Assembly: GCF_900156165.1 (NCBI RefSeq) | Contig: NZ_FTMY01000001.1 | Span: 1 to 64,000 of the forward strand | Length of the DNA: 64,000 nucleotides | Direction of reading: 5' to 3' | Source: Pseudacidovorax sp. RU35E | GTDB taxonomy: Bacteria; Pseudomonadota; Gammaproteobacteria; Burkholderiales; Burkholderiaceae_C | Part shown: piece by piece, positions 59,726 to 63,066 of the stretch | Layout: the number at the start of each line of letters is the position of its first letter | Position numbering within the stretch: position 1 is the first letter of the stretch | Notes under the pieces: model-generated | Told to the model about the DNA's origin: nothing | The model's database searches: none | Seen by the model: only the letters and a program-made list of their open reading frames with translations | Translations under genes and position numbers: made by a program

Positions 59726-61081
59726 ATGCCCGGTCGTCTTGCCGTCTTCTTCTGCCTGTCTGCCGCAGGTGCCGCCGCCACCGGCTTCCTGATGGGCTGG
59801 CGCCTGGCCTGGGCCGGGGCCTGGGTGGGGGCGCTGGGCTGGCTGGTGCTCGACATGCTGCGGGCCCACCGGCTGATCCAGGCCATGCGCAACGATGCGC
59901 TGGGCCTGCCTTCCGGCCGCTTCGGGCTGTGGGGCGAACTGTCTGACCGCATCCGCCGGGCCCTGCGCCTGCGCGAGCAGCAGACGCAGCAGGCCGAGCA
60001 GCGCCTGCAGGAGTTCCTCGCCGCCATCCAGGCTTCGCCCAACGGCGTGGTGCTGGTGGACGAGGAGGGCCGCATCGAATGGTGCAACCAGACCGCCGGT
60101 GTCCACCTCGGGCTGGATGTGGAGCGCGACCTGCAGCAGCTCATCGCCAACCTCGTGCGCGATCCCGCCTTCATCGGCTACCTCGCCTCGTGGAACTACA
60201 GCCGCGAGGTGGTGCTGGACGCGCCGGCGGCCACGCGCCCCGCGTCCGGCCAGCCCATGCGGCTGTCGGTGCAGGCGCATCCCTATGCGGGCAACCGCCG
60301 CATGCTGCTCACGCGCGACATCACCGCACTCGAGAAGGCCGATGAGATGCGGCGCGACTTCGTGGCCAACGTGTCGCACGAGATCCGCACGCCGCTCACG
60401 GTGCTCACCGGCTTCGTCGAGACGCTGCAGACGCTGCCGCTGGACGCCGACGAGCGGGCCCGCTACCTGGGCCTCATGGGCCAGCAGGCCCAGCGCATGG
60501 GCACGCTGGTGGCCGACCTGCTGACGCTGTCGCGCCTCGAGGGCAGCGCTGCGCCACCGGTCAACCAGTGGACGCGCGTGCGCGCGCTGATGGCGCACTG
60601 CGAGGACGAGGCGCGCGGCCTGTCGGGGCGTATCGCCTCGCAGCCGCACAAGCTGTTCTTCGCGGTCGAATCCGATTCGGAAGTCGCGGGCGTGCCGACC
60701 GAGCTGCAAAGCGCGATGTCCAACCTCGTGACCAATGCCGTGCGCTACACACCCGGCGGCGGCGAGGTGGCTGTCACCTGGCGCCTGCTGCCCGACGGCC
60801 GGGGCGAATTCACCGTGCGCGATTCGGGTCCCGGCATCGCCGCCGAGCACATCCCGCGGCTCACCGAACGCTTCTACCGCATCGACCGAAGCCGCTCGCG
60901 CGAGACGGGCGGCACCGGCCTGGGCCTCGCCATCGTCAAGCACATCGCGCAGCGCCACGGCGGTCAGCTGCGCATCGAGAGCGATGTGGGCAAGGGCTCG
61001 CGCTTCGCCATCACCTTTCCGGCCGGCCGCGTGCGCGAGGTCCGGGCGCGGCTGGCGGCGGCATCGGCGCCTGCGGCCTGA
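59726..61081 (+). CDS. phoR: Phosphate regulon sensor kinase PhoR
   Basis: Histidine kinase of 451 residues with two N-terminal helices (about 4-45, no large periplasmic domain), a charged region, and a PAS domain (about 95-200, AIQASPNGVVLVDEEGRIEWCN in parts). The H box VSHEIRTPLTVLTGF has H218. The ATPase domain has NLVTNAVRYTP, RDSGPGI and GTGLGLAI. The 110-base gap after phoB is long but carries no terminator. It converges with the next gene, leaving 3 bases between the stops. Confidence 0.94.
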   Translation: MPGRLAVFFCLSAAGAAATGFLMGWRLAWAGAWVGALGWLVLDMLRAHRLIQAMRNDALGLPSGRFGLWGELSDRIRRALRLREQQTQQAEQRLQEFLAAIQASPNGVVLVDEEGRIEWCNQTAGVHLGLDVERDLQQLIANLVRDPAFIGYLASWNYSREVVLDAPAATRPASGQPMRLSVQAHPYAGNRRMLLTRDITALEKADEMRRDFVANVSHEIRTPLTVLTGFVETLQTLPLDADERARYLGLMGQQAQRMGTLVADLLTLSRLEGSAAPPVNQWTRVRALMAHCEDEARGLSGRIASQPHKLFFAVESDSEVAGVPTELQSAMSNLVTNAVRYTPGGGEVAVTWRLLPDGRGEFTVRDSGPGIAAEHIPRLTERFYRIDRSRSRETGGTGLGLAIVKHIAQRHGGQLRIESDVGKGSRFAITFPAGRVREVRARLAAASAPAA

Positions 61082-61084
61082 GCT

Positions 61085-62803
61085 TCAGTCCACCGGCCAG
61101 CGCTGGCGCACTTCGGCCAGCCGCGGCGCGATGGACAGGAAGAGCGCGACGAGCTGCGGGTCGAAGTGGCGGCCCGCCTCGCTGCGGATGTACTCCAGAG
61201 CGCGCTCGACGGGCCACGCTTCCTTGTAGGGCCGGCGCGAGGTGAGGGCGTCGAACACGTCCGCGATGGCCACGATGCGCGCCTCCAGCGGAATGGCATC
61301 GCCGCGCATGCCCTGCGGATAACCGGTGCCATCCCACTTCTCGTGGTGCGACAGCGCGATGGCGCGGGCCATGGTCAGGATCTCGGAGCTGTCGTTGCCG
61401 ATGATCTCGGCGCCGATCAGCGGATGGCGGCGCATGACGTCCCACTCCTGCGTGTCCAGCGGGCCGGCCTTGCGCAGAAGCGCATCGGGAATGCCGATCT
61501 TGCCCACGTCGTGCATGGGGGCGGCATGCAACAGGTCGTCGGCCCATTCCGCCGTGCTGCCCGCAGCCAGCGCCAGTTCCTTGGCGTAGTGGCTCATGCG
61601 GATGACATGCATGCCGGTCTCGTTGTCGCGGTACTCGGCGGCGCGGCTGAGTCGTTGGACGATCTGCAGCTGCGTGCGGCGCAGTTCCTCGGCGCGCACC
61701 AGCGACAGGTGCGTGCGCACCCGGGCGCGCACCACGGGCGGGTAGAGCGGCTTGGTGATGTAGTCGACCGCGCCGGCCTCCAGCCCCATCGCTTCGCCCT
61801 GGCTGTCGGCCCGGGCGGTGCAGAAGATCACCGGGATGCTGGCGGTGGCCGGGTCTTCCTGCAGCAGGCGGCAGACGGCATAGCCGTCGAGCTGCGGCAT
61901 CATGATGTCGAGCAGGATCAGGTCGGGCCGGTGCTCGCGCGCGAGTTGCAAGGCACGGCGGCCGTCCGTGGCGAAGACCAGGCGGTAGTCGGACTGCAGC
62001 GCCAGCCGAAGCACCTGCAGGTTGGCAGGCTCGTCGTCCACCAGCAGCAGGCAATGGCGGCGATGCCGTGGCGCGGCTGCAGGGGTGCCTGCGGCGGGCA
62101 GCGCCAGGGTCGTCTCGGCCGCGGGCGCAGGCGCCTCAGCGGGGCGTTCGAGGGCCACCGCTTCGCCCACCAGTTGTTCGGCAGGCAGTGCGCGCAGGAA
62201 CTCGTGGCGCTCGCGGCCGCGGGCTTCCAGCCAGGCCCGGACCAGGCCGCGCGGCAGCAGCACCGGCATGCGCCGCTCCTGGCCGCTGGCGCCGTAGCGG
62301 GCCATCAGCGGATGGTCGTCCGCATTGATCGTCAGCAGCGCAAAGCTCAGCTGCCGCACGCCGTTGTCGTCCAGCCAGCTGCTCCAGATGCCGGCCATGC
62401 ACAGCGCATGGCCATCGCGGCGGCTGATGCGGGCCAGTTGGGGCAGGCGCGGGTCCACACGGTAGTCCTGTGTGTAGATGGCGGCGGCCGGCACCACGCA
62501 GAGCTGGTCCTTGCTCCACGCCGCGGCGTAGGGGGCCTTGCGCACTTCGTCGTCCCGCGCGAAGGCCGTGCGCAGGCGCAGCGCGGCCTCCATGCCACCG
62601 CGCCGGCTGTCCGTGGTGACCAGCCCCCAGCGGCCGATCTCGACCACGGGGGCGCCCGACTGCTTGTGGATGAAGGCGCCCGGGCCGCCCGGCAGCACCT
62701 CGTCGGTGCAGGCCGCCGGGGTCTCCAGCGGCGTGCTCTGTCGAAGATCGCGGGCCAGAACATCCCAGTGGCGATCTTGCGCAGGAGCGTATCGGGAGAG
62801 CAT
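61085..62803 (-). CDS. SRAP-like / receiver / HD-GYP fusion protein
   Basis: A 572-residue three-domain protein. Residues 1-215 match the SRAP (YedK/HMCES) DNA-crosslink fold: MLSRYAP at the start, RWGLV (58-62), CMAGIW (135-140), LLTINAD (156-162) and RMPVLLP (178-184). The catalytic Cys2 is Leu2, and the Asn, Glu and His positions (near 76, 111 and 177) are also replaced. After a Pro-Ala linker comes a receiver (VDDE 255-258, phospho-acceptor D299, K351). An HD-GYP domain follows with HD at 431-432, HHEKWDGTGYP at 486-496 and the full metal ligands. It probably degrades cyclic di-GMP under control of an unknown kinase. The SRAP part may sense rather than catalyse. Confidence 0.85.
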   Translation of the reverse strand: MLSRYAPAQDRHWDVLARDLRQSTPLETPAACTDEVLPGGPGAFIHKQSGAPVVEIGRWGLVTTDSRRGGMEAALRLRTAFARDDEVRKAPYAAAWSKDQLCVVPAAAIYTQDYRVDPRLPQLARISRRDGHALCMAGIWSSWLDDNGVRQLSFALLTINADDHPLMARYGASGQERRMPVLLPRGLVRAWLEARGRERHEFLRALPAEQLVGEAVALERPAEAPAPAAETTLALPAAGTPAAAPRHRRHCLLLVDDEPANLQVLRLALQSDYRLVFATDGRRALQLAREHRPDLILLDIMMPQLDGYAVCRLLQEDPATASIPVIFCTARADSQGEAMGLEAGAVDYITKPLYPPVVRARVRTHLSLVRAEELRRTQLQIVQRLSRAAEYRDNETGMHVIRMSHYAKELALAAGSTAEWADDLLHAAPMHDVGKIGIPDALLRKAGPLDTQEWDVMRRHPLIGAEIIGNDSSEILTMARAIALSHHEKWDGTGYPQGMRGDAIPLEARIVAIADVFDALTSRRPYKEAWPVERALEYIRSEAGRHFDPQLVALFLSIAPRLAEVRQRWPVD

Positions 62804-62990: not shown

Positions 62991-63066
62991 TCCCCGATAG
63001 CTCAGTCGGTAGAGCGCCGGACTGTTAATCCGTAGGTCCCTGGTTCGAGCCCAGGTCGGGGAGCCA
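62991..63066 (+). tRNA. tRNA-Asn (anticodon GTT)
   Basis: Acceptor stem TCCCCGA/TCGGGGA, D-arm TAGCTCAGTCGGTAGAG, anticodon loop CTGTTAA with GTT at 63024-63026, T-loop GGTTCGAGCC, discriminator G and encoded CCA. 76 bases. Confidence 0.97.

Follow-up and report, generated by a model that had tools for sequence, protein, structure and literature searches.

The window, the whole 64,000-nucleotide stretch of Pseudacidovorax sp. RU35E analysed here, carries on its minus strand a gene (61085..62803) for a 572-residue protein in which an SRAP-like domain is joined to a receiver and an HD-GYP domain, confirming the fusion noticed in the initial annotation. The SRAP-derived part comprises residues 1–220 (62144..62803), with Leu at position 2 and F81, T111 and G171 at the old Asn, Glu and His positions. 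It is followed on the same strand by an Ala/Pro-rich linker (residues 221–247; 62063..62143), a receiver (residues 250–370; 61694..62056) and an HD-GYP domain of the E-T-G (trinuclear) type (residues 380–569; 61097..61666). The receiver contains D256, D257, D299, T329 and K351, with D299 (61907..61909) as the predicted phospho-acceptor, while the HD-GYP domain contains H431-D432 (the HD motif; 61508..61513), G494-Y495-P496 (61316..61324) and every residue that we checked from Bellini 2013. In a structure model of the fusion protein, pLDDT fell below 50 over residues 220–247 and the full-length pTM was 0.43, so the model gives no fixed contact between the SRAP and HD-GYP domains. Searched against NCBIfam, the whole protein matched NosR-type phosphodiesterase regulators far under the cut-off (160 versus 400 bits), and the SRAP part alone had zero matches. 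On the plus strand, a phoR-like histidine kinase gene (59726..61081; named by eye) is convergent with the fusion gene and ends 3 bases from its stop, and a tRNA-Asn(gtt) gene (62991..63066) is the upstream neighbour.

The N-terminal domain has an SRAP fold by sequence and in the structure model, as had been claimed, and DNA-bound HMCES and YedK are among the structures nearest to it; these matches rule out a non-SRAP fold. It resembles the SRAP family (YedK, HMCES and Bordetella 1zn6; PF02586) in fold, domain length, many core residues and pocket arginines, but differs from it in having lost the four crosslinking residues, in carrying Leu, Ile or Phe at position 2 and in its C-terminal REC-HD-GYP extension. 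In 1zn6 the catalytic triad is Cys2, Glu115 and His173, and the pocket residues R86 and R180 are predicted to touch DNA, as described in sections of the 2013 SRAP survey (PMC3765255) that also call Cys2 absolutely conserved; alignments map these five residues to positions 2, 111, 171, 83 and 178 of the fused protein. Across the 12 fused copies described below, position 2 is Leu, Ile or Phe, the old Asn position 81 is Leu or Phe, position 111 is Val, Thr or Leu and position 171 is Gly, which extends the loss of all four crosslinking residues, first noted in the window's protein, to all 12 copies. R83 (62555..62557, minus strand) and R178 (62270..62272, minus strand), the equivalents of the two predicted DNA-contacting arginines, are retained in all 12, as are T158 and H164.

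The wider pattern was assessed over 27 residue positions that are invariant in 10 canonical SRAPs, compared with the 11 fused rows of alignment A1. Fifteen were unchanged in all 11 rows (M1, P38, G60, T79, R83, W96, C102, P105, D130, A137, G138, T158, H164, R178 and W191), seven were replaced in all 11 (C2, N81, E111 and H171, together with E85 to D, T155 to A/G and K177 to R/H) and five were variable (A82, P112, L139, N160 and D162). Judged from these alignments, residue loss is centred on the active site yet not confined to it. A Leu, Ile or Phe following the initiator Met normally prevents Met removal, so the fused domain should also lack a free N-terminal amine of the C2A type. Parts of a study of YedK-type chemistry (JBC 2022, PMC9436759) report that the C2A protein still forms a Schiff base via this amine, that Glu105 is the most important residue after Cys2, and that loss of His160 costs at least tenfold while loss of Asn75 costs little. 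With Cys2 and the acid/base Glu gone and the initiator Met probably retained, neither a thiazolidine nor a Schiff-base link is expected, and covalent chemistry of the fused domain at an abasic site is very unlikely.

Each of the six genomes with either fused protein among the matches listed encodes two of them (6/6): copy 1, which is 87–90% identical to the window's protein (79% in G006), and copy 2, which is 53–55% identical. In the window's own genome, copy 2 lies on a contig other than that of copy 1 (L004:1369-3153; G000:C13); the others are L153–L157. None of the 12 copies contains an internal stop, and the five receiver residues are present in all of them, copy 2 included, which upholds the claim of a phosphorylatable receiver. 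The HD-GYP domain of copy 1 retains the eight metal ligands, D183, K225, D308, the GYP motif, R314 and K317 (PmGH numbering) in 6/6 proteins; the claim that it is intact was thus correct for the window's gene, and from these residues copy 1 is predicted to hydrolyse cyclic di-GMP. In copy 2, Ala replaces D183, Val replaces E185, Val or Ile replaces K225 and Arg replaces K317 in 6/6, with the other checked residues kept. In PmGH, according to portions of Bellini 2013 (PMC4159591), D183A and K225A abolish activity, whereas loss of E185 alone leaves some. Because D183, E185 and K225 are lost in all six, copy 2 is probably a double pseudo-enzyme, dead at both its SRAP and its HD-GYP ends.

The same junction recurs in six genomes and in the second copy, which excludes an assembly error or misplaced fusion. 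Among the matches listed, the full-length fusion was found in 6 of the 15 genomes of the genus group (G000, G001, G006, G007, G010 and G011) and in none of the remaining relatives among the 199 searched. Genome contigs were searched as well, and the best 80 of at least 589 stretches include a contig of Pseudacidovorax intermedius DSM 21352 (L035) with an 89% identical fusion. Together with these stretches, the searches of the 199 relatives and of 250 family, 349 order and 369 class genomes (overlapping sets) revealed, among the matches listed, no SRAP-REC-HD-GYP fusion outside the six genomes and L035, where the architecture is conserved. A profile of the fused SRAP domain matched 92 of the 349 order genomes and 45 of the 369 class genomes. 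Outside G000, the only frames of at least 500 residues listed in the order and class sets (G444 and G168) were canonical SRAPs of the MCGR type, in which 17 and 15 residues follow the domain. The six long frames outside the fusions listed in the family set were L121, L142 and L145–L148. In four of them the match is followed by 2–77 residues; in the other two, L121 and L148, it crosses a stop, and neither had a REC-HD-GYP match among those listed. Of ten long-frame loci examined for following domains, nine had an SRAP profile match and none a following domain; L230 had no match, and in L229 the SRAP domain runs into masked N. Outside these ten, G495:C71 is a 428-residue frame with a stop inside. 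Plasmid (329 records) and phage (20 records) matches to the SRAP part all fell below 60% identity. Three same-genus genomes without the fusion encode long SRAP-family proteins (L158, L159 and L160; frames of 346, 346 and 332 residues) with an MCYSA start and, by eye, a charged insertion.

In the other five fusion genomes, copy 1 likewise adjoins a tRNA-Asn gene and a pstB-phoU-phoB-phoR cluster (by eye), again convergent with phoR. Compared with the window's phoR, identity is 88% or higher in the six fusion genomes and does not exceed 82% in the remaining nine of the genus group, which suggests that the fusion is the mark of a single sub-clade. Four of the six non-fusion genomes that we read (L207–L210) have a transporter-like ORF after phoR (MATE-type by eye), and L205 and L206 were not clear; since the neighbourhood differs in these genomes, there is no clean empty site.

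Phylogenies were built separately for the two parts of the fusion. The REC-HD-GYP tree contained 83 rows, leaving out unfused rows below 46% identity, incomplete rows, stop-containing rows and duplicates; in it the 12 fused REC-HD-GYP parts formed one clade (99/97), as did copy 1 (99/96) and copy 2 (100/100), and the copy 2 stem was long (0.97 versus 0.13). The SRAP tree contained 48 rows, omitting L157, L146 and L149 as well as repeats and stop-containing rows, and likewise placed the fused SRAP parts in one clade (100/100). The simplest history suggested by these trees is one fusion, followed by duplication and fast change of copy 2.

A second group in the SRAP tree comprised stand-alone proteins that also lack Cys2. 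These formed a clade of 20 rows (100/100; L117, L119, L122, L124, L128–L131, L133, L135, L138, L141–L144, L150, L178, L180, L183 and L184), all from the same family or order as the window's organism. A single clade of Cys-less stand-alone and fused SRAPs gave an AU p of 0.55, which neither shows nor rejects a common origin. Like the fused domain, these proteins (MSTHYES/MTTHYES type) are without Cys2 and mostly without the His; unlike it, they are single-domain, carry Ser, Thr or Pro at position 2 and keep the Asn and often the Glu. For example, the 12 rows included in alignment A1 have Ser (6), Thr (5) or Pro (1) at position 2, with Glu kept in 7 and Asn in 10. By analogy with YedK C2A and C2S, members that retain the Glu may be capable of Schiff-base formation or AP lyase activity. 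Of the stand-alone proteins listed for the 250 family genomes, L117 from this clade matched the window's domain best (E 9e-34), and the order-level profile search ranked a Cys-bearing SRAP (L176) first among stand-alone matches. Around ten Cys-less stand-alone genes, with neighbours called by a home-made gene finder that missed the gene in L219, the only recurrence recognised by eye was that shared by L215 and L216.

Over the REC-HD-GYP part, the closest unfused relatives were those of G017 (75% identical) and Delftia (70–71%). We read 16 unfused loci (L036–L052 without L049) from the best 80 of at least 589 stretches, and in all 16 a same-strand ORF of 988–1,269 residues ends at most 54 bases from the start assigned mechanically to the REC-HD-GYP ORF. 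In L037 this upstream ORF is a hybrid kinase, with matches to the Pfam domains MHYT, PAS, HisKA, HATPase, receiver and Hpt, and five more are similar by eye. In G017 (L188:1031-5824), an MHYT hybrid histidine kinase and the REC-HD-GYP protein form one frame of 1,597 residues, where relatives have two adjacent genes. Copy 1 resembles REC-HD-GYP regulators of the E-T-G subgroup, such as TM0186, in its receiver and intact HD-GYP domain, but the fused copies differ from the unfused regulators in having an SRAP domain and no tandem kinase gene, as judged by eye for copy 2. No hybrid kinase lies directly upstream of copy 1 on the same strand, where the tRNA is found instead, with the convergent phoR-like gene downstream.

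The window's own genome also encodes an unfused REC-HD-GYP paralogue (L185:1476-6154; G000:C10), 60% identical, behind a hybrid kinase of 1,215 residues that has no MHYT match; this kinase system is a candidate for cross-talk with the fused copies. Just past the window end, about 1.9 kb beyond the start of the fusion gene, there is a kinase-like frame of 599 residues on the plus strand (L204; G000:C17:64679-66478), and a similar frame is found near copy 1 in G007 (C61:6045-6743).

Purifying selection was estimated by the Nei–Gojobori method over 15 pairs per copy. The SRAP domain had a dN/dS of 0.20 in copy 1 and 0.18 in copy 2, compared with 0.45 and 0.55 for the linker, 0.06 and 0.13 for the receiver and 0.14 in both copies for the HD-GYP domain. 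The SRAP values lie well under those of the linker, indicating that the domain is maintained; both the pseudo-SRAP domain and the degenerate HD-GYP domain of copy 2 are held by purifying selection. These values bear on the idea that an SRAP domain was accidentally joined to a response regulator and has no role of its own. Its missing catalytic residues would fit such a relic, as would the confinement of the fusion, among the matches listed, to six genomes of one genus group, but the low SRAP dN/dS, 12 copies free of stops and 84 of 220 SRAP-part positions invariant across both paralogues make it improbable.

A different question is what the maintained domain binds. In copy 1 it has a computed isoelectric point of 8.9, and in one copy 2 (L004) the value rises to 10.3; four canonical SRAPs gave 6.1–7.8 and three Cys-less stand-alone SRAPs 9.3–9.4. 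As far as sequence can tell, the pocket arginines kept in every copy and the basic charge speak in favour of nucleic-acid contact and would point to single-stranded nucleic acid as the most probable class of ligand, a protein partner being almost equally probable. We considered whether the pseudo-SRAP domain binds single-stranded DNA or 3′ junctions non-covalently, thereby coupling the breakdown of cyclic di-GMP to DNA damage or replication stress. The retention of T158 and H164 alongside the arginines, the high isoelectric points and the DNA-bound HMCES and YedK among the structural neighbours are all consistent with this. Nevertheless, conservation in the old active-site segments did not exceed that of the remaining domain (22/50 positions invariant versus 62/170 elsewhere; Fisher p 0.41), and T155 and K177, which lie in or near those segments, have been replaced too. 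Both observations make a retained ligand pocket less likely.

Regulation and gene context lend no support to a DNA-end reader either. Within 350 bases of the window's gene, the best site for an E. coli-type LexA box had 3 mismatches, although other LexA motifs may apply; one of the 12 upstream regions (L165) had a 1-mismatch site at −140, and over the window the E. coli-type motif was rarer than in shuffled sequence (9 versus 18). We found no convincing Pho box at the gene and recognised by eye no SOS gene beside it, the neighbours being the pho-type cluster (by eye) and the tRNA-Asn. The link to DNA damage suggested in the initial annotation was therefore not supported by any of these tests, and although such a link is possible for the fusion protein, we regard the reading of DNA ends as doubtful. 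As an input, DNA damage would still be the most attractive specific reading, on the strength of the fold, two arginines and basic charge.

In another possible role, the pseudo-SRAP domain would serve mainly as a pairing module and copy 2, degraded at both ends, would heterodimerise with copy 1 to switch its activity. Both copies occur together in 6/6 fusion genomes among the matches listed, the copy 2 receiver is intact, and the copy 2 HD-GYP domain is under purifying selection despite the loss of D183, E185 and K225. There is a precedent in activation by a dead paralogue, the Trypanosoma brucei AdoMetDC prozyme (as presented in excerpts of PMC5201418), which is similar in the co-occurrence of active and dead paralogues but concerns unrelated enzymes, and the pairing of copies 1 and 2 is putative. 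That copy 2 sits on a different contig, and that E185 loss by itself is not inactivating in PmGH, tell against this arrangement, which we hold only tentatively. A combined scheme is unlikely: copies 1 and 2 would pair, their SRAP domains would read single-stranded or broken DNA without crosslinking, and lesions would set cyclic di-GMP breakdown and with it the motile or sessile choice.

On balance, we lean slightly towards an orphan cyclic di-GMP phosphodiesterase response regulator with a non-covalent pseudo-SRAP domain for input or docking. In this protein, the HD-GYP domain of copy 1 would hydrolyse cyclic di-GMP, the receiver would be phosphorylated on D299 by a kinase encoded out of tandem, the pseudo-SRAP domain would position or tune the phosphodiesterase as a non-covalent module, and copy 2 would probably act as a regulatory partner of copy 1. 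Several observations temper this preference: the old active-site segments show no extra conservation, nothing found puts the gene in the SOS network, the full-length model has no fixed contact between the SRAP and HD-GYP domains, and kinases are nearby after all (the convergent phoR-like gene and the frame of about 599 residues at C17:64679-66478). Of the sensor or docking interpretation offered at the outset, the architecture and residue losses stand, the DNA-damage link finds no support in these tests, and the sensor or docking role is one that we infer.

Together, these results indicate that the protein is a REC-HD-GYP response regulator carrying a pseudo-SRAP domain and not a working SRAP protein, as far as its residues reveal. 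The confirmed anatomy is unusual and maintained by selection, and among the matches listed it is restricted to a single sub-clade. In the open-licence literature searched, we found no description of an SRAP domain joined to a signalling output, in keeping with the impression that the architecture was undescribed, and nothing on cyclic di-GMP in Pseudacidovorax; the words HD-GYP and receiver are absent from the main text of the 2013 SRAP survey (PMC3765255). As a natural crosslink-dead SRAP, the domain offers a tool to separate DNA binding from covalent chemistry, and the active and dead HD-GYP pair is a test case for regulation by pseudo-enzymes. Should it still recognise DNA, the domain would connect DNA damage directly with cyclic di-GMP.
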